Part shown: positions 1-61,333 of the stretch, in pieces | Layout of the letters: the number at the start of each line of letters is the position of its first letter | How positions within the stretch are numbered: the stretch's first letter is position 1 | Assembly: GCA_036925085.1 (NCBI GenBank) | Contig: JAUPFP010000006.1 | Span: 481,001-545,000, forward strand | Source of the DNA: Brachycybe producta | Lineage: Eukaryota; Arthropoda; Diplopoda; Playtdesmida; Andrognathidae | DNA length: 64,000 bases | Direction of reading: 5' to 3' | The notes under the pieces: generated by a model | Databases searched by the model: none | Told to the model about the DNA's origin: nothing | Seen by the model: the letters and a program-made list of their open reading frames with translations, nothing else | Program-made: the position numbers and the translations under genes

Positions 1-3000
1 AAACCTATTTCCGATCCTTTTCTTGCAAGCAATGCAATTAGTAAATTCCGTAATGATTATTTTATCGGCTTGAAACAGAAGTTTCTTTTGTTGAACCTGA
101 AGGTAGTCAGCATGATGCAGATTCATCATAATCTGCAAGTTACGCTTCGTTGTAGCTTTCGCCTGTACGACGTGATCCAAATAAGAACGAACATCCTTCA
201 ATGGTATTGAACTGGGAATGATGTCGAGAGCTTTTATCGGATCGATTTCTTTCGGATATTCTTTTAAAAGTTTAAGAACAGCTTGGATATCGGGTTCTAG
301 CGTCACCATCGGTTGTGTCGAAACTCCAACCAACGACGAATCGGAAGGAATAGCGTATAATTTCAGAAGCAACAGATAAACCTGTTAGAAATCCAGTTTA
401 AATGAATAAATTCAATAAATCCTTTTTTTTAATTTCTTACGTCTTTATTTCCGACACGGTTGCTGTCGTAATTTAACCTGCAGTATTCTTCCGCTTGATC
501 TCGATCTTTGAGTACGTGTGAATAGATGGCAAGAGCCTGTTCGTGGCGACCGATGCGGCCCATTAAAATAGCTCGTTCTTCAAAAAAATCTACGAAAAAA
601 AAAAGAAACAATAAAAATGACGCTTTTTGCGGAGAGGGACAAAACACTATTTGTTCCAAATATCCGACCATCGTAAGGAAAACGAATTATAATCTGTTCG
701 GGATTATAATGAACAGAAGTCTTCAGAAAATTGACTAGTTTCTCTCGTAAAGTATTAAACTCCTTTCTCTTCAGCAAAACACTCATTGTGGAATCTAATA
801 AAAAGAAAGTTAAAACAATATTAAAGTCAATTTCTCCAAATAATAAATCGTTTCGTTGTGAACCGTCTGTCTGATGAGAAGCGATTTCGGTATTCAATGT
901 TTGCAATTTCTCACGATACTGATAGATAAGTACATTGTGAAAATTAGAACATTCGTCTTTCCAAGTAAAGATTACGTGTTCCTAAGACACGGAATCGAAA
1001 AGTTAGAAATTTCGTATCAAACAAAAAACAAGTTTATTAAGTTTCAAACCAAATATGGAATGACGAGAGACTTTTCCGTTTTGAGCAAGAACGAAAGAAC
1101 CTGGTCGCGAGGAAGATCTTCAACTTCCGAAATATTTTCGGTGAAAATACGAAGACCATCTAAAGGATGAGCTTTCAGAACCCATCCGGAAAAATTGAAG
1201 ATCAATTCCAAGTTTTCTCGTCCTAATCCATATGAAAAAACAAAACATAAGCATATTGTTAATAAAAATAGGAACTTAAAATGTTATTAATAAGGTTCAA
1301 ACCCAGGTGTTGAAGGTACTGAATAGTCCTTTCATGTCCCTTGAGTGGCGAATCCGGTTTCTTTGCTTGTCTAAGAAGAAGATCCAAAGCCTTTTGATGT
1401 AGATTTTTACGCTGATACAAGATGATGAGTTCACTATATTTATGATGTTTCTTTAGAGCTCGTTCGCTCTCTTCGATATGGCAGTGGTTGTCCGGAAGTC
1501 TCAAAAGAGCAGCTACAAGAGCATCGTTCGTCTAAGTAGAAAAAAAAGTACATAAAAAGTCGCCGTATTTCCTCTCGATGTAGATTTCCAACCTGAAGAT
1601 AACATTTCAGTATAGTAGTGTCGATAATCTGTAACAATTGCCTTTTTGTATGTACAGTTGTGCTGCCCTCGACGATAGCCATCGATTGAACACCACGATT
1701 GACATCGTCGGACAAAGAATGCCTGGACTGAGCCAAATAATCGATCAGTGCAAGTAATCCGTTCTCTAATTCACATCCGGATAGTTCGGGAACAGGACAC
1801 GGATACTGAAACTGTTCGCGGTAAACTTGAGGTAGCAAATCAGGAAACAATCCGATGACATGTGCGGGATCTTTAAATGAAAAACAAAATTTTTATGAAA
1901 ATAAAAATTAAAAAAAAAAAGATGCAAATAGGCCTGAAAAAAAATGCAAAAATGTGCAATGGAAATTGTTAATTTTATGCAAATTTTAAGTATATAACAT
2001 ATAGCAAAAGTGAAATTAATTAATTGCTTGAAACAATAACTACAAAAAAATGTTAAATCAAAATTATCCCGTTTAAGAAAACCTTTTAAAGAAATTTAAA
2101 AAATTATGCAAATTTCCATAGAGTAGCTTTATGCATTTTAATTCTGGTTTAAAATGATTATTAATGCGCAAACATGGTACTTATATACAGTAATAGCATT
2201 GTGGTGTCCAAAAAAAATGTTTTGGAACTGTTGCCATTATGCATCTTATGCAAATTTTTAGTCATAGTTATAAAATTCCACCGTTAGCGTTTTATTCACA
2301 AACCTGTGTCGAGATCGGTAAAAATTTCTAGCGACTCTTTAAATTGAAATTTGCAGAATAGACTAAAAGCATAAAGATTCCTGATTTGTTGAATTCTCTG
2401 CTGTTTGTTGCCATCTTCGTTATCGTCTTCTTCCTTTAAAGAAACAAAAGAAAATTAGAAATTATAATTCAGAAATATTTCAGAACAAAAAAACATCCCG
2501 ATACTAACCGCCAACTTCAACGCTAACTCAAACTGATTATCCTGAAGCAGTTCCGGAATTTGCTGACTCACTGGTTCAGATATAAGGCACCAGATGTGAG
2601 ATCCCGAAGCCACAAAAAGACGTCCCCGTCCACTGGTCGTCAGTAATTTCGGTTTTTGTAACTCAATGTTTTGTATCAAACGTCGCGGTTCGATCGTTCT
2701 GATTTCAACACACTTCGAGAGAATGGAAACAAGATATGGTGGATCATGTTCTGTTATAAATAAACCCAATATTATGACGACTAAAATCTACAAATTAATG
2801 TCTAAATGTAACAGTACCCATACAAATCGGAAGTCCCGACCACGTAACTGGATATCTGTGAGTCGGACTACCGTCGACATCGATGAAAATCACAGATTCG
2901 TCGCGCCCTAAAGCGAACTTATCGTCGACTAGACGACTCACTCTCGGTTCGAGCAATTTTCCTGTTGGAAAAAGATCCTTTAGTTCGCCGTTTATCTGTA

Positions 3001-4586
3001 AGAAACAATTAAAATTATGGTGAACAATAGCAAAAACAAGAAAGAAAAAACACTTTCCCACCTTTAGTATACAGTATTCATCTCTGAATCCGATGCAGAG
3101 AGAATCAGCACACCACGCCATTACTCTAGGAGCATCGGGAACATTCAGATCTTCCTGAAAGAAAAAAACGTAAAAGTTTTAGACTAAGAAAACTACCGTA
3201 AACAAGGCTAACTTACAGAAAGATCGTGAAACATTCCTTTTTCCCAGTAATAAAGCTGCAAAATACATAAAAAAAAATACGAAAATCGTGACCTTAAGAT
3301 GATTTATGAACAGCTCATTTTCAAACTCTGATTATTCTGTCTTTCAGAAGGGCAAAATTAAGAAAAACTAGAAATTATTTATCGATTGCTTAAAGTTGCG
3401 TCATTGTCAATGTGATACAGTATAAAAAGCTTATTTTGAGAGATATCGACATTAAAATACTCTTAAGTGATTGAACAACCCTTCTAATTTGTAAAAAACT
3501 TTCAAGTTTCAATTTATTTTGGACCTGACAGACAGAATAATCGAAGTTTGAGAGACCCCTGCACTTTAAACCCACCGTAATCGACTAAAATGCAAAAAAA
3601 AAAAACTTACTTGCAACTTCTTACGAACTGCGACACATAGTCTCACAGTAACAAGAACGTCTCCCGTCGGCGTTTTCTGTTTCTATAACGAACAAAATTC
3701 AGATAAAATTCATTATAAGCAGTTATTTGTGATTGTAATAATAGAAAACCTAGTGGAAACGATCTCTTCATACTTGCACATCGGTTACGAAAAGCGTCGC
3801 TCCTTTGGTACGACTCAAAACGAATAATGGCGTGTTGAGTTCGCTCAAATCGTGGACGCTTATTATGTTATCTATGCAAAAAAAACAACGTTAAATTGTT
3901 CGAATATTTGCTCGTGTCAAGCTACTTACCGGATAAACTGATTACAATTCTCAAATCTGGAACGACACCTAACTACAACGACAACAAAACAACTTAAAAT
4001 ATTAGATTGTTTAAATTAAAAGTTTATTTTTCAGTACCTGTACAACTGGTTTCTTCGCAAAATTCTTATTAGATCGTATAAGATCGACTTTGCAACTCTT
4101 TTCGGCTAAAACGGATCATTGAATTAAAAAAATTAAAAGACTTAAAAAAAAATGCGACTAATTTTACAAAACTGACGAAATTAATGAATGGCCTATGTAT
4201 AACATTAAAATGTTTAATCAATTGACCCCAATATTTTCAGCAGTATCAACAATTACGTGAAATAAGTAAGCAATTATATATTATTCATACATTTCGTCAG
4301 TTTAAGCAAAGTTCATTTGTTTCCTTAGTTTCGACCCTTAAATACGCCAATTCTTACTCGTGTTCACTTGCGGAAAAACGCGATAAACTAAAACATGACC
4401 AGGTTTCGTTCCCACAAGTAGACAATCATCTGTTTCGAATATATATATACTGGTATTATTATTATTAGCAATAGACATGTGACATTAAGACGGAAGTGAG
4501 ACAAATATATTACCATAGGCGGCTATGGACTCAATCTGCAAAGGAAGTTTTTCGATGACAGGAGACGCTCTATAAGCAGTATGCAT
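1..4586 (-). CDS. VPS39: VPS39/Vam6, HOPS complex subunit (C-terminal end cut by window edge)
   Basis: VPS39 is the HOPS subunit that binds Rab7 and tethers late endosomes to lysosomes. Exons (minus strand): 4514-4586, 4358-4429, 4038-4105, 3930-3972, 3774-3871, 3611-3676, 3217-3255, 3062-3154, 2818-2995, 2509-2750, 2304-2433, 1593-1870, 1303-1531, 1050-1222, 864-981, 669-794, 441-589, 1-381. All have GT-AG borders and compatible phases, giving 852 codons. The start MHTAYRASPVIEKLPLQIES resembles human MHDAFEPVPILEKLPLQID. The N-terminal half is the citron-homology/beta-propeller region (MAWCADSLCIGF, ELKDLFPTGK, CVEIRTIEPR). The C-terminal half is the alpha-solenoid (DNHCHIEESE, KGHERTIQYLQHLG, ERAILMGRIGRHEQALAIY). 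The last exon reads into the zinc-binding C-x2-C (CIACKKRIGN), so about 20 residues lie outside the window. Exon 3217-3255 is a 39-nt microexon. Identity is very secure; single borders could be off by a few bases. Confidence 0.96.
1871..2303 (-). other. VPS39 intron 11
   Basis: This 433-bp intron is AT-rich with repeated 'atgcaaat'-like words near 1921-1985, 2105-2115 and 2240-2255. No coding homology was seen. It may hold an old transposon relic. Confidence 0.6.
3300..3580. repeat. Fam-1 palindromic MITE copy, in a VPS39 intron
   Basis: This is a partial copy of the commonest repeat in the window. Diagnostic words are 'tctgattattctgtctttcag', then 'aaaaagcttattttgagagatatc', then 'cccttctaatttg', then 'agacagaataatc'. 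The two halves are roughly reverse complements. Fam-1 ends look like TTAAGGTGGTTTTAAAGTG and its mirror image. It sits wholly in the intron between VPS39 exons 3217-3255 and 3611-3676. Confidence 0.8.
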
Positions 4587-11997: not shown

Positions 11998-13187
11998 ATG
12001 TCGGGAAAAGATAGAATTGCAGTATTTCCATCTCGAATGCAAGTATTTTGCATTGTTTTTGTTTTAATTTGGTTGTTTTATTCGTTTTGTTACATGTTCT
12101 ATATTCACCACTCCCTTACTATAGGAGTGTTAGATTTCGCAATATATATTCCCCTTATCAATCTTATCGTTTTATGGTACTTTTTAGGGCTCAAACTGTG
12201 ATGAAAAGTCGTTTAAAAGGAGCACAGACAGGACACAGTTTACTGAAGAAGAAAGCCGATGCATTGCAGATGAGATTTCGTCTTATTTTAGGCAAAATCA
12301 TCGAAGTAAACAACTCGAAACAAGTTTGCCTTCTTCGCTTTTCAAACGTTTTGATTTTGATGTTCTAGACAAAGTCTTTGATGGGTGAAGTGATGAAAGA
12401 AGCTGTTTTCTCGTTGGCCGAAGCAAAGTTTGCAACCGGAGATTTCAATCACGTCGTACTTCAAAACGTAACGAAAGCTCAGATCAAAGTTAGAACTCGT
12501 AAAGATAACGTAGCCGGAGTCAATCTGCCGATCTTCGAGAGCTATCAGGATGGAACCGACGGTTTGAATTCGAAAGAAGCATAAAATAAGGGAGTTGAGA
12601 GACTGATTCATCTTTTCTTTCATTTCAGCTTACGAGTTAGCTGGACTTTCTCGTGGTGGACAACAGCTTACGAGATTGAAGAAGAACTATCAGAAGGCTG
12701 TTCAACTTTTAGTTGACTTGGCTTCACTTCAGACTTCGTTTATAACACTCGATGAAGTCATCAAGATAACGAACAGAAGAGTTAACGCAATCGAACACGG
12801 TATTTATCGAGATCGGTTTGACGAAATTTATGAAGTATTTTCAGGTGGTTCGTAAAGATTTAAATCTGTGATCTTTCTTTTATTTTAAGTCATAATCCCG
12901 CGGATTGAACGAACTTTGTCGTACATTACAACAGAGTTAGACGAACGTGAAAGAGAAGAGTTTTACAGGTTACGAGTCTTATATTATTAGATTTTGTCGT
13001 AATGTATTCAAATAAAACCTTTTTAATTTTGCGTGGTTTCAGATTGAAGAAAATTCAAGAGAAAAAGAAGATAATCAAAGATAAACAGGAAGCGAGAAAG
13101 GCCGTTTTAAAAGCAGAAGGGCTTTTACTGGAAGAGGCTGCGGCTAATCTTCTTGATGACGACAGAGATGAGGATCTGCTCTTTTAA
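11998..13187 (+). CDS. ATP6V1D: V-type proton ATPase subunit D (complete, 6 exons)
   Basis: Subunit D is the central rotor shaft of the V1 sector, coupling ATP hydrolysis to proton pumping in endolysosomal and other membranes. Exons: 11998-12038, 12188-12305, 12369-12561, 12629-12799, 12890-12968, 13043-13187. They total 249 codons with stop, 248 aa against 247 in human. The start [14 protein letters not shown] matches human MSGKDRIEIFPSRM. Further hallmarks are [43 protein letters not shown]-type [62 protein letters not shown] and the acidic tail DEDLLF. The protein is mostly long coiled-coil helices. The first intron needs a GC donor (see the separate entry). Reading GT at 12043 instead breaks the frame. 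Confidence 0.97.
12039..12187 (+). other. GC-AG intron 1 of ATP6V1D
   Basis: Exon 1 ends CGA-AT and the intron begins GCAAGT. The next exon starts after TTTTTAG with G-GCT-CAA. This restores R-M-A-Q-T-V-M, as in human R-M-A-Q-T-I-M. The nearby GT at 12043 would leave the next exon out of frame. GCAAGT is the usual form of the rare GC donor class. Confidence 0.85.
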
Positions 13188-17335: not shown

Positions 17336-17846
17336 TAAAGTATTTGTTTTTTAACGTTTGAATAGCTTCTAAATACATTTTAGTTGTGATTTAATCTAGT
17401 TATTCAATTGGAATAGTCGCGTCTTTTATTGTCGCCATTTTTAATCACACGTTTTAATCAAATTTTATATGGTTTTCCGTGTGAAAAATAGCAAATTTAT
17501 AATCGAAAACTTTTTTTTTGCTGCAGATATGTAATTCGTTAAATTTAGTAAATTATATTTTCACGTACATTTGAATATATAGTATTGCTAATTAGCATTT
17601 GCATCGATATGTATCGGTACTATTCGAGTCGAGTATGTAGTGAACGATATGTCTTAAGCCCAGTTACGGCATGACGTCACTGTCGCTGCACTAGTTTTTT
17701 CTATTGTGACCCATTATGGCGGTTATTACTTTGTAATGTATTTTGAGACGCCATATTGGATCACTCGTGCTTTTTATACAAAAATATTAAGTTATTCGTG
17801 TTATTTTTTTTTTTCTGATTTCTTATATTTTGTGTAGTTTTAGGAC

Positions 17847-20800
17847 ATGGGGACAAGAGTTTACGTTGGTCGTCTTCCGTACGACGTCCGTGAAAGAGAT
17901 TTGGAGAAATTCTTCAAGGGTTACGGACGAATCCGTGAAATTCTTCTTAAAAATGGCTTTGGATTTGTCGTACGTTTCATTTAAAGCTTAATTTATTTTG
18001 TATTCCATTATTCAATGGCCTAGTTTTGAATTCATATAATAGGAATTCGATGACTACAGAGATGCGGACGACGCTGTGTATGAACTAAACGGCAAAGATC
18101 TATTGGGCGAAAGGTGAGTGGGTTTTTTTATGGCGGCCATTTTATTGTTTTTGATATGAGGGGGCGGAGGTTCTTTACAAATGACGTCATTTTTTTTTTG
18201 TTTAACGGGATTGGATTTTCTCCTGCTTTGGAGGGCGGAGCTTTATGTTCCAAATCTGTCAATCAAAAGTTTAAACAATAAAGTTGCAATAGTTTCTCAA
18301 CCATTGGGCCGCATTTTTTTCTCGTCTTAATTAAAATTTTGGCTCACTTGAGGGCCGCTTTGTTGCAATTTTTACAAAAATATAGATTTGCCTATAAAAT
18401 AATTAAGGCAAATGTGTAATAGCGTTCCAATGCGCTTATTAAAGGAATAATTTTATCTTTAGACATTTTTAAAAGAAATTCGGCTATTTGTAACTTTAAT
18501 TAGGCGTTTTTATTCTTTTGTTTTAAAACTTTTCTAGAGAATTTGCATTATAAGTAACCCTAATTAGCATTTAATTATGTAATTATTCAAATTTCATTTT
18601 TTTTAAAAATTCTATTGTAAAAAATTTTAATGCATTTTTAAAACAAGGAAATGATTTTTTTTTTAAAAAACCTCTGAGTTTTTTATGAATTTAATTTGGC
18701 TGTCTAAATTATGCAAATTTCTAGAGCTAGGAATATTGACCTGCCCTACAAACAAACTATGTAGTACAAAAGGAACCTCAATTGATTGACTGCCTGAAAG
18801 CATTTGATGAAAAGTGACGTTTATTGGCGTGCGAAAAACAACTTTTATTCATTTTTTGAGCTCCAATTGAATGTTTTTATGGAAATTTGATTCAATTAGA
18901 AGCCCACTTACCCTCTGCAGTTGTAACTTTGAGGCTAGCGGCTCCTAATTGAATGAATAACCTGTTTTTTTTTTAAATATGTCACAATGTTTTTATCTGG
19001 TTTGTTTTATCGTCTCGTCTGCCGACTTCTCCTTCTACAAGCATTTCCGCAGCCAAACGAAGAGAAGAGGGACTTTTAAATATATTGTTTTTGCGACTCG
19101 TTCTGAACTTTTTTTCTTTCGATGACGAGACGAGGAAGAAAATCTGATCTCGTCTTTTTTTTTTAATTTGGCTCTTAAAAAAACGATGAAAATTGAATGG
19201 CCAAAATTAATTTAGTTTTTTTTTTCTCTTCCCTCGTTCTCTTTTCTTTTTTAATCATACAGAATAATAGTAGCGCATGCCCGCGGAACGGCTCGTGGAA
19301 GGAGCGGTGGCGGCAGAGATAGAGATGGAGGCGGTAGAGACGGTGGCGGTTCAAGACGCCGTACCAACTGGATAGACAAGTAAGAATACTAAACGGTTAT
19401 TTTTCGTTATCCTCTTTCCTCTTGTCTCCTCTCCTCGTTCCTCTTTTTTCTTCCCTCGATCCTCTGTTAACCCCACCCCCCTCCTTTAGGGTTTCTGTCG
19501 AACACGCACGAGGAAGTCCTCACGGAAGCGACCTGTGGCGTGGAGGAGGAAGTGGGAGACATAGGTCTCCACGTGCTCCTCCTCCGCGTAGCAGTAGTAG
19601 GCGATCGGGACGTGACAAGTAAGCGTCGTGATTGGAGGAGTTTCTTGGGAATGGAAAGGGTTGAAGGGATGGGTATTTATGCTAATTGTGGATGAGCTCA
19701 TAGGTTGGGAAGAAGTAAAAATCAGGGTAAATTGGGTGAAACTGGTCCAATCAGGACCACTCTGAATCAGAACTACGCCTTTGTGATATGATTTGAAAAT
19801 TTAGCTAATCAAAAAATTGTTTTTAAAAAATTCAAATTTTGTTGGAAACTAGAAGAGTTAAAACTTGAGTAATTTTTTTAAAAAAAGGAAAAAGGTTACA
19901 TTTTATGGCAAGTTTGAACGTTATAAACTGAAGAAGTCACTAAAATGCATTGAAAAAAAGCTCGAAATTGGCATTTCTTGAATTACTTTTGTGAAAGTGT
20001 CATGAAATTATGACATCTTTCAAAAGTAATTCAAGAATTGAAAATTTCGACACGTAATTTTGCATCGTCGTTAATCCACTGTTGATGTGATCGAGATGCG
20101 ATTTAGTTGCTTTATTGTGGTTTTTCTTTGTTTTTTTACTCCCTTTTGATCGTCGTTGCCACGCAGATACGGGCCACCAACCAGAACCGAATATAGGCTC
20201 ATCGTTGAGAATCTTTCCAGCCGTGTCAGTTGGCAGGTAAAGTAAAAACCGGTTATTAAATCGGTCTTTTTTTTTTTTCTTCTTCGTTATTTTATTGATT
20301 TTTTTTTTTTGCACGATTGTTTATTTGATAACGAAAGTGTACAACAGCTTTAAATTGTGTTTTGATTGTGAGTTCGAGAACAGATTTCCTTTTGAGCTGT
20401 TTATTGTCCGTTGTTCGTATTCGATTTCTTCGATCGATCGTTGTTGCGGTTTTTACTTCGCGGTTGCCTCCTAGGAAGGGTCTTTCTCTAGCCATTGATG
20501 TCTTGTGTCTCGGAATGGGAAAACGATTACGAACACCGGACGAGAGGCTTTTTGCGGCTTGCAAATTTTTTCTTGTGGTTTTCGTTGGTTAAAATTAACT
20601 GTTCTCGTGCTCTACGATCAGTTGTTTCATTTATGTTTGTGTGACCAAAACAAATAGTTATCTAACAATTCTTTTCTAAAGAAAGACGAATTTACGACCG
20701 GTACCTTTTGTGTTGGTTTTAACGATTGGTGACGATTCGTTTGAGGGTCTCTCGTGGCGTTTACTTGTCGAGAGAGCGAAAGAGAAAAGAGCGAGCGAGA

Positions 20801-23628
20801 AAGAGAAATCAATTGGGGCTATTGAGAGAAAGAAAGAAAGGAAGGTCGAGGTCGTATGCAATCCTGGCCGATTCCACTTCCTACTCGTTCCCGGGGGCAC
20901 ACTGTCTCTCGTAATCGTGTGACGAAAAGGGCCTCTTCGAGGCCTTACCAGTTCGGGCCTCTCGTGGCTTTTTTATTCGTGCTGTTGTCTTAACGATTGA
21001 GCACTTTTCACAACTGTACTCCTGATAATTTTTCCGTACCCACAAAATTCCTCGACACCACCTTACACCTGATCCTTTTCCTCCTCCTCCTTCATCTCGT
21101 ACGATCGACGGACATCCCGAGTCAGAGGTTCGAGGGTGCCTGTGATCTGGTCTTGGTCTCGTTCGTTTTGTCTATCCCCTGCGTGGCCGATGCGAGTCTT
21201 GAGAAGGGAATAAGAGAGAGGGTAATGAGCGTGAGAGCGAAAGGGCGTCCCATCCAATGACGTTTGCCTACTGGGCCGAGTCTTTTGGGCCGTTAATGAT
21301 TTTACACACGAAAACGTTCGTTCGAAAGGCCGAAAAAGGTAATTCTTCGTTGTTGATGACGAAAAACAAAATCCTCGCGAATATCAAAAAAAATCTACTT
21401 TGCTCTGTTCTCTTACATTGATTCCGTTTCTTCAACAGTTAATTTTTTCACACCTTTGTTTGGGGCTTTTTAAATGTACAGGCGAACCTCCTACAAGAAA
21501 CAATGTTGTTACAATTGGGTTGTTGCTCCACATTGTGAAGTAGCTGGTTTACGAACTTTTGATTCGTATTGGATTTTGAGAGCAAAATTTAAGAGAAACT
21601 GGAATGTCGCGTATTTCCATGGTAATATATTTCGAAATAAAGACAAATATAACTACAAAGTCATAGAAGACTGTGAATTCAACAAAGAAAAAGTCAAATC
21701 AAGAATAATTTAATTTATTTCAAAATAAACTGCGGACAAAAATCTAAAAACTTGGATGTTTTCCCAAACACGTATAAAAAGCTCATTTTGAAAAATAACG
21801 GGAAAATATCGTTAGTGATTCAGCTATCCTTCTAGTTTTCCTAAAACACATTAGTTTCTCTTCATTTTGCACTTAAAAGGCAGAGTAATCAACAGTTCGA
21901 GAGGCTTTTTTACACTTAAAAACTGAAGTTTTCGCTTGAGTTATTCGCCTGTATATTTTTTTTATATGTTAAGTAACTTTTCCCCCCATTTTTGTAATAT
22001 AAAATGGGGTTTTTTTTTGGTGGGTCCTCGAAGTATTTTACCTACTATCTTCTATAAGCAAATGCAGACGTCTGCTAAACCTTTTGCCCTGTTCTCTTGT
22101 TTTTTAGCCAGTTTATAGTGATTGAGATTGTGGATAAACATATTGGAAAAGGTAACTGTGGGGTTGATGATTCATTGATAACAAAATCTCGAGCAAATTT
22201 TATCTGAAGAGTTTTACTTTGCTCGATCGAGTTCGAAATACTGGAATTGTATATATATATTTGTAGTAACCTCTCCTTTCCCCCTTACGTTAGCATCTTC
22301 GCACGTGTTTTTTTATAATGTTGGAGTTTGGTTCTTTTTGTAGCTTACTTTTTTCGAGAGAGGCCTTTAGGTTATTTTAATGCTTCGTGAGATGAAATTC
22401 CCAATTTTTCTTTTCTCTTTTCTTCTGTTTTTTCCTCGAGTGTCTAATATTTTTTTTGTCTTTTCTCCGCTTTTTTTCTTTGTCATCTTGAAATATCTCA
22501 GGATTTGAAGGATTTTATGAGACAAGCTGGTGAAGTAACGTATGCTGATGCTCACAAGCAACATCGGAACGAAGGGTTAGTTGACACTTTATTTTTCTCA
22601 TTGCTATTATGTGTATTGTTATTAAAGGCTAAAACTTTCATTCATTCAATTATAAATTAAGAAATGGCCGGATTTTTCTTAATGGAAACTGAGCATTTTA
22701 TGCAAATAGAACAGTTGTTTTAAACAGCTGATGTTAGAACTCTTAATTATTCTGTGTTTTGTGAGTAAAATTAAAAGAAACTTGAATGTGTTTTAGAAAC
22801 TAGAAAGGGGAGGGGGAGCTCTTATCACTTTAAATTTTCAAAATAAGCTTTTTATGTCACTTTGAAAATAGCCAAACTTTATTTAAGACAATTTAATATT
22901 TGTCTATAAAAAGTTTATTCCTAGCCTTAATTATTCACTTAATTTGAAGTTATGATGATACTGATCTTTCGGGGCGTAAGTACTATTGCCGATAAATCCT
23001 TTTCTGAACTTCTTTTAAGAAAGTATTGAGTTTTTTTAGCGAGAAACCAGTTTTCTTTAATTTTCGTTACCGTTTGCCTATTTGAAAATGAAAATTTCAT
23101 TTTTTTTTAGTGTTGTGGAGTTCTCTTCGTACACGGACATGAAAAACGCCATCGATAAGTTAAGCGACACGGAATTAAACGGAAGACGGATTAAACTTGT
23201 GGAGGACAAGTCGCACAAAAGCCGAAGACGGTATTTTTGATTGGTAGTTTTCGTTAAGTTTCTTTTTACTGATTTTTTATTTTATTTTCAGATCTCGCTC
23301 TCGTTCTCGATCGAGTCATAGCCATAGCCGTTCTCGATCCCGATCGAGTAGACGATCTCGTTCCAGGTCTCGTTCACGCTCTCCACGTTCCAGATCCAAG
23401 TCAAAGACGAGTTCTCGTTCGAGAACGCCTCATTCTAGGTCGGTTTCCAAATCGAAATCAAAGTCTAAATCACGTTCTCGTAGCCGATCTGTAGGACGTT
23501 CTAAGTCTAGGTCGGTGAGCCGTGGAAAGAGTGTAGAAAAGAGTAAATCGAGATCACGTTCTCCTGCAAAGTCGGTCAAGAGCGAGGATCGTTCGTCTCC
23601 GATGAAAGTCTCGAAAGATGAAGATTGA
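17847..23628 (+). CDS. SR splicing factor, SRSF4/5/6 (B52/SRp55) type, complete
   Basis: SR proteins bind exonic enhancers and recruit spliceosome parts in the nucleus. Exons: 17847-17969, 18043-18113, then 19263-19379 (3a) or 19490-19618 (3b), 20167-20236, 22502-22575, 23111-23230, 23292-23628. Phases close to 303 aa with 3a or 307 aa with 3b. RRM1 has RNP2 VYVGRL and RNP1 KNGFGFVEF, and FFKGYGRI matches human SRSF4/6. The pseudo-RRM2 starts [20 protein letters not shown], carrying the SWQDLKD signature of two-RRM SR proteins, then [22 protein letters not shown]. The last exon is an RS domain of about 110 residues rich in SR/SK dipeptides, ending KVSKDED. A single SRSF4/5/6 ortholog would be usual outside vertebrates, so no paralog symbol is given. 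The coding exons are GC-richer than the introns. Confidence 0.96.
18295..18370. mobile_element. hAT-like MITE fragment in SR intron 2
   Basis: It contains GTTTCTCAACCATTGGGCCGC and a trailing TCACTTGAGGGCCGC. This is a pattern common in hAT terminal regions, with a related fragment near 27690-27740 (GGGCCATATTGAAAG ... CACATTGAGAATCCC). Ends and target duplication are not clear. Confidence 0.35.
19263..19379 (+). other. Alternative SR exon 3a (beta-4 of RRM1 plus Gly-rich linker)
   Basis: The 117-nt exon follows CATACAG and ends before GTAAGA. It starts and ends in phase 2. After the shared GE it encodes [18 protein letters not shown], a Gly/Arg/Asp-rich linker, then [17 protein letters not shown] resembles the fly B52 linker. 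Confidence 0.85.
19490..19618 (+). other. Alternative SR exon 3b (beta-4 of RRM1 plus Ser/Arg linker)
   Basis: The 129-nt exon follows CTCCTTTAG and ends before GTAAGC. It has the same phases as 3a. It encodes [19 protein letters not shown], then [21 protein letters not shown] followed by [10 protein letters not shown] is near-identical to human SRSF4. It is separated from 3a by a 110-nt intron. Confidence 0.85.
21126..21338 (+). other. Candidate poison exon in SR intron 4
   Basis: The 2.27-kb intron 20237-22501 has a GC-richer centre. A pyrimidine tract (TTTTCCTCCTCCTCCTTCAT) precedes AG at 21124-21125. Donor-like sites follow at 21222 (AGGGTAATG) and 21339 (AAGGTAATT). Read on from exon 4 in phase 0, the frame reaches TGA at about 21258. 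The shorter form (95-96 nt) would also shift or stop the frame. A purine-rich tract (GAGAAGGGAATAAGAGAGAG) could act as an enhancer. SR genes commonly regulate themselves through such exons. The borders are guesses. Confidence 0.35.
21760..21930. repeat. Fam-1 MITE copy, half element
   Basis: It has 'aaaaagctcattttgaaaaataac', then 'gtgattcagctatccttctagttt', then 'ggcagagtaatcaacagttcgagagg' (each quoted in part). It lies in SR intron 4. Confidence 0.65.
22725..22960. repeat. Fam-1 MITE copy
   Basis: It has 'gaactcttaattattctgtg', 'gttttagaaactagaaaggg', 'aataagctttttatgtcac' and 'tctataaaaagtttattc'. The distal part is lost. It lies in SR intron 5. Confidence 0.65.
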
Positions 23629-24571: not shown

Positions 24572-26198
24572 TTAGTAGCTGCTAGGATTTCCATAACTAG
24601 AACCACCGCCATAAGTAGGGAATTTAACCGAGGCTCCGTAAGATGTTCCATATTCAGATGGATGTCCAACATTGTAAGAATAGCTGCCGGAACTTGGACC
24701 GTAGCTTCTGCTGCTGCCGTAACTCGATTCATAACCAGATCCGTAGCTGGGAGATCCGTAACTGCTGTAACTACTTCCGTAACTCGGTGCTGCGTAGCTG
24801 CTGTAACTACTTCCGTAACTCGGTGCTGCATAGCTGCTGTGTCCAGATCCGTAGCTTGGTGATTCGTAACTGCTGTAACTGCTTCCGTAACTTGGAGCTT
24901 TGTAGCTGCTGTGTCCGCTTCCGTAGCTTGATCCGTAATGAGGAGTCGAGTGAGCGTAACTGCTGTGAGCATTATCGTAGTTCTTGTTGTTGTGGTTTGA
25001 TCCGTATTTGTTGTGTCCACCGTAATGTCCATTGTTGTTTGCGTATTTATCGTAATAGCTCTTGTAAGCATCGTCGTTGTACTTGTTGTTGGAATTGTAG
25101 TAGTCGTTGTATTTTTTGTAATCGTTGTTATCATGATACTTGCTGTAATGTCCGTATTCTTCCTTGTGGTAAATGTTGTGGAATCCATCCTTGTTGTGTC
25201 CGTGATCGGAAAGACCCTTGTTGCCGTAATAGTTGGCAGCTTTGCCGTGGTTTCCGTAGTTGTTGTGGCCGCTGTTGCCATATTTGTTTCCGTGTGCACC
25301 ATAGTAATCATCGTAGTTGCTGTGGTCACCGTGGTTGGCTCCGTAGTTGCTGTGTCCATAAGCACCGTATTTGTTCTGATGTCCGTAGCTGGATGGTGCA
25401 TAATCGTAGCTGGAGGCAGAAGCTACCAAATCGTCACTCTTGACTTGGACGGCTGTCGAGGCTTCGGCTACTTTGGGTTCGTGAGGTTCCACAGTGGCAT
25501 CAGTGCTCATAACATCACACAGACACACACTCAAAACCAAGAAACATACGAGGAACTTCTGCAAATGATGAAAAATAAATTATTTTAAAATGGTTTACGA
25601 ACAGCTGATTTTCGAACTGTGGTTATTCTGTATTTCAGAAGAGCAAAATAAAAGAGAAACTAGAAAGTGTTTTAAAAACTAGAAGGATAGCTCAATCACT
25701 TAAGGATATTTTCTTGTTGATGTCATTCAAAATTCACTTTTTATATAATAAAGTTAAAAATAATAATCCTTAAGTGATTGAACTACCTTTCTAGTTTCTA
25801 TAACACATTCAACTTTCTCTTAAGATGTTTTATCGAACTATGATTATTCTGTATTTCAGAAGAGCAAAATAAAAGAGAAATTAGAAATTGTTTTAGAAAC
25901 TAGAAAGGTAGCATAGCTCAATCATTTAAGAGTATTTTCTTATTAGTATCTTTCAAAATAAACTTTCTATAAAAAATATTAAAAAAAATATTATTTGTTT
26001 TAAAATTTTCAAACTCATACATTAAAGATATTTTTTTTAAAAAATGAAAATACTCCTTAAGTGATTGAACTACCCTTCTAGTTTATAAAACACATTCAAA
26101 TTTCACTTCATTTTACACCTGAAAGACAGAAAAAAAAAAACACTTTAAAACCACCTTAAGCGATTAATAAATAAGTTAAAAACTTCAAAATATACCAT
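24572..26198 (-). CDS. Secreted Gly/Tyr/Ser/Asn-rich low-complexity protein
   Basis: Exon 1 carries only the ATG (26196-26198) before a GTATAT donor. Exon 2 is 25558-24572 after TTTGCAG. Together they give 329 aa starting MKFLVCFLVLSVCLCDVMS, a clear signal peptide. An acidic spacer follows (about 20-55). Next is a stretch rich in Tyr, Gly, Asn, His and Lys (about 55-195), with motifs such as YGNHGKAANYYGNKG, and no cysteine. Then come near-tandem repeats of APSYGSSYSSY (about 205-290) and a Gly/Ser/Tyr tail ending NPSSY. Such composition suits an extracellular structural or adhesive protein (cuticle, silk-, byssus- or glue-like) or a Gly/Tyr-rich antimicrobial peptide. No family is recognised. 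The 5' exon is inferred from splice signals and a TATA box; exon 2 is certain as an ORF. Confidence 0.82.
25590..25828. repeat. Fam-1 MITE copy
   Basis: It starts TTAAAATGGTTTACGAACAG, then 'ttctgtatttcagaagagc' and 'agctcaatcacttaaggata', and the mirrored 'gattgaactacctttctag'. It is one of two adjacent copies that make up most of the intron of the Gly/Tyr-rich gene. Confidence 0.8.
25828..26165. repeat. Fam-1 MITE copy, nearly full length
   Basis: It starts CTTAAGATGTTTTATCGAAC and ends ACTTTAAAACCACCTTAAG. Both ends carry TTAA, which suggests a TTAA target site as in piggyBac elements. The body has the usual inverted halves. Confidence 0.8.

Positions 26199-31055: not shown

Positions 31056-61333
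<30,278 letters not shown>

Follow-up and report, generated by a model that had tools for sequence, protein, structure and literature searches.

The nearest analogue of the exons described here is the Ab/3 pair of U2AF1, the source of U2AF35a and U2AF35b, where a splicing factor likewise carries tandem duplicated alternative exons in an RNA- or protein-binding module. According to PMC6821156 the U2AF35 isoforms have different nucleotide preferences, and PMC5224494 attributes a long polypyrimidine tract to the repressed U2AF1 exon. U2AF1 belongs to another protein family, however, and its exons are a vertebrate pair whose use has been demonstrated experimentally, whereas the pair reported here, 3a and 3b, is known from sequence alone.

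A second precedent, the pair 4a/4b of OGDH, concerns the mechanism of exclusion. There, exclusion is enforced by branch points lying between +25 and +41, and a limit of ~50 nt from the upstream donor has been proposed (PMC7969005). The intron between 3a and 3b resembles the OGDH intron as described there (PMC7969005): it is short, AG-free and largely polypyrimidine, with a branch-point-like site under the ~50-nt limit. The OGDH branch points were mapped by experiment, however, whereas the site at +12 in our intron is a sequence match that has a conventional competitor.

The protein itself is closest to human SRSF6 and Drosophila B52 (SRp55), whose domains come in the same order and whose RRM1 and pseudo-RRM are closely similar in sequence; the RRM1 of human SRSF6 carries a VEHARG strand, as does exon 3b. 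We know of no duplication of exon 3 in human SRSF6 or in B52. Insect SR proteins probably include some whose linkers resemble those of 3a and 3b, and the 3a/3b pair could perhaps already be present in other annotations. Among the literature titles and opening lines of abstracts listed, a set that mostly leaves subscription papers aside, none described an exon pair of this kind in an SR protein. A word search of main-text passages of PMC9741552, which surveys tandem duplicated exons in humans, returned neither SRSF genes nor U2AF1 nor RRM. The 3a/3b pair is best filed as a known kind of object, the tandem duplicated exon pair, with an unusually well-defined predicted consequence.

Two homologous versions of exon 3 in an SR-protein gene

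The window, by which we mean the whole 64,000-nt stretch of DNA analysed, carries on its plus strand an animal gene whose protein is an SR splicing factor with two RRMs, of the SRSF4/5/6 (B52) group. RRM1 starts in the coding part of exon 1 (17847-17969), recognized by in-frame translation. It continues in exon 2 (18043-18113) up to ...DLLGER, as indicated by in-frame translation and by the donor AAGGTGAGT, which ranks first among 280 GTs at 17800-22500 on a generic splice-site matrix. Two exons follow on the same strand, both placed by splice sites, phase and alignment to human SRSF6 PDB entries. Exon 3a (19263-19379) encodes the beta-4 strand RIIVAHARG, with Ala69, and a Gly-rich linker, and exon 3b (19490-19618) encodes RVSVEHARG, with Glu69, and a linker rich in Ser, Pro and Arg. 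The pseudo-RRM starts in exon 4 (20167-20236), identified by translation and PDB alignment. Spliced translation then carries it through exon 5 (22502-22575) to its end in exon 6 (23111-23230), and assigns the C-terminal RS domain and the stop codon to exon 7 (23292-23628). Within the intron that separates 3b from exon 4, positions 19962-20050 hold an inverted repeat whose 30-nt arms are 90% complementary and which could be a small foldback element.

The conceptual protein is 303 aa long when 3a is used and 307 aa when 3b is used, and in each form runs uninterrupted through RRM1, linker, pseudo-RRM and RS domain. Its RRM1 is near that of SRSF6, the best PDB match being 9r53 (E 1.5e-31 with 3b, 1.3e-31 with 3a); the pseudo-RRM with its SWQDLKD motif is present in the spliced protein, and 9hx5 also matches. 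The assignment to the SRSF4/5/6 type in the original prediction is thus backed by PDB alignments to SRSF6 as well as by the spliced translation. In prokaryote genomes, 168 stretches yielded 18 confirmed loci, all in bacterial records and similar to RRM1 only, which were set aside, and 12 stretches of viral contigs matched the related-gene pattern, none of which was confirmed.

Rechecking reproduced exactly the coordinates, lengths, phases and translations first proposed for 3a and 3b. The exons measure 117 and 129 nt and are separated by 110 nt. Each completes the Arg codon begun by the AG of exon 2, and each ends in GACAA, to which exon 4 adds the A that completes the last codon. All four combinations (3a only, 3b only, both or neither) are in frame. 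Retention of the intron after either exon brings an immediate stop (DK-stop), owing to the phase and to GTAAG.

Splice sites were scored over 17800-22500 with the generic matrix, which uses general frequencies and was untrained on this DNA. Since two sites of the gene itself score low (3.0 for the donor of exon 1, 1.1 for the acceptor of exon 2), the matrix is a rough guide only. By this rough measure the good splice sites claimed for both exons are indeed high-ranking. The 3b acceptor is first of 234 AGs (score 13.5) and its donor third of 280 GTs (8.2), and the 3a acceptor is tied for ninth (8.2) and its donor sixth (7.3). Among pairs of sites scoring at least 6 and lying 20-400 nt apart in the same region, none defined a third copy or a poison cassette within intron 2. 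Two pairs opening in intron 2 extend into 3a and contain stops, and the pairs with a donor at 19727 also contain stops.

As in other tandem duplicates, 3a and 3b are adjacent and homologous, compatible in phase and equivalent in protein position. With either exon, residues 4-73 of RRM1 align to human SRSF6 RRM1 9r53 at ~113 bits, and the alignment reaches the end of beta-4. The human SRSF6 entry 9hx5 aligns to the linker end and the pseudo-RRM of both forms, and both linker ends face human SRSF6 SSRRTSGRDKYGPP, before DKYGPP. A vertebrate-like end had been predicted for 3b. That resemblance stands, but it is not limited to 3b: the end of 3a, which keeps SRRRT..DK, also resembles SSRRTSGRDKYGPP. 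The linker of 3a, likened in the original prediction to that of fly B52, may share that likeness too.

The two beta-4 strands have R, V, H, A, R and G in common, and in five of these six codons the only difference is at a silent position, as expected of two old, protein-constrained copies. Random DNA composed of the same bases as 3a would give V, H, A, R and G at all five shared positions with a probability of ~1.6e-6, for positions chosen after the match was seen. A loose beta-4 pattern matched four times in the six frames of the 64-kb window; two matches are exons 3a and 3b and the others lie at 20945 and 46452, leaving no third beta-4 copy beside the pair in this search. Over their full length 3a and 3b are only modestly similar: when 3b was shuffled, 74 of 5000 protein versions and 37 of 2000 codon versions scored as well, because the linkers share little beyond Gly, Arg, Ser and their ends; the middle of the linker has therefore diverged freely. 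Taken together, the shuffles, the SRSF6 alignment and the beta-4 codons uphold the view that these are two homologous versions of one exon. That 3a and 3b are complete exons, equivalent in protein position, is solid.

Predicted consequences of exchanging 3a and 3b

The RNA complex of SRSF1 RRM1 provides the reference for what the exchange would change. In PMC7813835, Glu87 of beta-4 hydrogen-bonds cytosine, Ala mutants of the contact residues bind RNA more weakly, and the E87N mutant gains uridine binding. The same text extends the cytosine preference to RRM1 of human SRSF4, SRSF5, SRSF6 and SRSF9 and of fly B52, and states that the inter-RRM linker of SRSF1 sets the side and the distance at which RRM1 binds relative to the RRM2 site (PMC7813835).

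SRSF1 Glu87 aligns with residue 69 of our protein, which is Glu in 3b and Ala in 3a; two positions earlier, at residue 67, 3b has Ser where 3a has Ile. Glu occupies the position of residue 69 in the aligned RRM1 chains of the SR proteins SRSF6, SRSF1 and plant SR34. The other SRSF1 contact residues named in PMC7813835 correspond to residues encoded by the common exons 1 and 2. The original prediction that an RNA-contacting strand is altered can now be tied to a named residue, Glu69/Ala69, aligned with SRSF1 Glu87. Since Ala stands at this position in other RRMs that bind RNA well, such as poly(A)-binding protein RRMs in some alignments, Ala69 need not mean lost binding and could go with a different kind of RNA binding. 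The exchange resembles E87N in that the swapped residue aligns with Glu87, and E87N changes base preference (PMC7813835). E87N is an engineered point change, however, whereas here Ala is a natural alternative supplied by a second exon, with the linker changing too.

The 31-aa linker of 3a contains 10 Gly, 2 Ser and no Pro; the 35-aa linker of 3b contains 6 Gly, 8 Ser, 5 Pro and four RS/SR dipeptides. These compositions agree with the predicted swap of a Gly-rich linker (3a) for an Arg/Ser one (3b), and add that the latter is also Pro-rich. Exon choice would be expected to alter both base reading and inter-domain geometry.

The explanation that we prefer, to which we give a probability of about two in three, is that a tandem-duplicated exon persists as two functional copies, used alternatively and mostly one per mRNA, and that the exchange of Glu69 for Ala69 together with the linker alters RNA reading. 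The exon duplicated in tandem would be the one that encodes the final RRM1 strand and the linker leading to the pseudo-RRM. The 3b form would keep the cytosine-reading Glu69 and a Ser/Pro/Arg-rich linker, and the 3a form would have Ala69 and a Gly-rich one. With these, RRM1 of the 3a form would read RNA differently, with weaker or no cytosine preference, and its Gly-rich linker would make RRM1 docking freer relative to the pseudo-RRM. Splicing control would operate through the very long polypyrimidine tract of the 3a-3b intron, and a distant branch point too near the 3a donor may be a further element of exclusion. Alternative use of 3a and 3b is likely; strict mutual exclusion and a switch in specificity we regard as inferences.

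It is conceivable, though doubtful, that one exon choice resets both the base-reading residue and the RRM tether, and so gives one gene two splicing regulators whose binding rules differ. The usual picture of a splicing regulator is one of fixed RNA preferences. If the idea were true, the gene would change its own RRM1 preference and inter-RRM geometry, and isoform choice would re-target a whole splicing programme. The pair would also be a natural test of the structure-function work on SRSF1 Glu87, as a matched pair whose members differ only there and in their linkers. Upstream of 3b the intron is rich in C and contains a ACCCCACCCCCC run, and one may speculate about self-regulation, in which the cytosine-reading 3b form would bind this C-rich tract, restrain its own exon and shift splicing to the tract-blind 3a.

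The intervening intron and the question of exclusion

The intron between the two exons (19380-19489, plus strand, 110 nt) is nearly all polypyrimidine. The AG-free run before its terminal AG is 103 nt; the corresponding runs at the gene's six other acceptors are 17, 45, 58, 59, 58 and 31 nt, and just 49 of the 6547 AG-to-AG gaps on both strands of the window reach at least 104 nt. Over 95 nt the intron is 84% pyrimidine, a level attained in 19 of 127810 intervals, 14 of which lie there; this richness and the AG-free length are not independent features. The remaining five equally pyrimidine-rich intervals lie on the other strand at 47265-47275, in the only other such region (47265-47369, minus strand). 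The OGDH-type trait, a long AG exclusion zone with a polypyrimidine tract in the intervening intron, is thus present.

Candidate branch points were scored on a home-made U2-pairing scale. TACTAAA (19387-19393, plus strand) provides a candidate distant branch point, A19392, at +12 from the 3a donor (score 7.5). A competing conventional candidate, A19470, lies in TGTTAAC (19465-19471, plus strand), at +90 from the 3a donor and 20 nt upstream of exon 3b (score 7.9). Use of A19392 would block 3a-3b splicing, and use of A19470 would leave it unblocked. Frame and NMD cannot enforce exclusion, since all four exon combinations are in frame.

This freedom of frame, with 117 and 129 both multiples of three, would equally suit two ordinary cassette exons spliced in any combination, joint inclusion among them, with exclusivity absent. 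The better score of the conventional branch point at 90 nt, which would permit 3a-3b splicing, points the same way. Joint inclusion, however, would add a second beta-4 and linker without an RRM of their own, double skipping would delete beta-4 of RRM1, and the occurrence of the beta-4 motif at the same place in both copies fits substitution better; we regard free combination as unlikely. Pfam RRM_1 does not separate the four exon versions, its match ending at residue 64-66 in each.

Our preferred reading, alternative use of two functional copies, has also to be set against normal use of a single exon. That exon would probably be 3b, with its stronger splice sites and conserved Glu, and 3a would be rarely used or decaying. 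On the rough matrix the acceptor and donor of 3a (8.2 and 7.3) do fall below those of 3b (13.5 and 8.2), and the branch-point candidates for 3a, at 9 or 53 nt from its acceptor, are unfavourably placed. Yet 3a is fully open, and 39 open codons are expected in ~4% of cases at intron-like composition and in 20% at the composition of the exon itself. Six beta-4 residues (R, V, H, A, R and G) have moreover been preserved in it despite changes at silent sites, and it retains SRRRT..DK at its end. A decaying or idle 3a therefore seems to us a slim prospect.

Pairing between parts of the transcript was examined in 12 region pairs by a duplex test. For intron 2, shuffles did as well in 5/60 cases with the tract before 3a, 3/60 with the intervening intron, 0/60 with exon 3a, 0/60 with exon 3b and 21/60 with the last intron. 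For the last intron, the counts were 1/60 with the tract before 3a, 1/60 with the intervening intron, 58/60 with exon 3a and 44/60 with exon 3b, and for the intervening intron they were 27/100 with exon 3a, 85/100 with exon 3b and 16/100 with the tract before 3a. The low counts are mostly effects of G-rich exons or of purine-pyrimidine composition. Local shuffling is a fairer control, and under it pairing with the tract before 3b vanished: the purine-rich stretch 3' of 3b (19619-19700) paired with that tract in an ordinary way, 188 of 300 local shuffles doing as well. With the tract before 3a the same stretch gave a weak signal, 12 of 300 local shuffles being as good. Overall, the case for the tracts pairing elsewhere in the transcript does not convince. 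The folds of 19600-19780 and 19360-19700 are ordinary (z -0.49 and z -1.23, respectively). Within exon 3b, a strong hairpin, GGAGGAGG/CCTCCTCC (19537-19590), was equalled in 8 of 500 synonymous shuffles, and may hold SR-protein GGA sites in its stem; folding of exon 3a is ordinary, 365 of 500 synonymous shuffles being as strong. That competing RNA secondary structures around 3a and 3b enforce mutual exclusion is highly improbable, for although the purine stretch with the tract before 3a beats 288 of 300 local shuffles and the 3b hairpin is seldom equalled, the pairing with the tract before 3b and the whole-region folds are ordinary and the low-count pairs mostly reflect composition.

Other features of the window

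An SNF2-related domain is encoded at 36302-36850 on the plus strand (E 3e-17) and is INO80-like by eye only. At 12015-12368 on the plus strand begins a protein of the ATP-synt_D family (E 1.8e-9), probably V-ATPase subunit D. On the minus strand, 2795-3178 is CNH-domain-like, at a score under the Pfam cut-off, and adjoining minus-strand open frames may share its gene. Finally, a 335-aa open frame at 24572-25579 (minus strand), without a Pfam match, has a signal-like start and is rich in SYGSSYSSYxxPSYGS repeats, and its product looks like a secreted structural protein.
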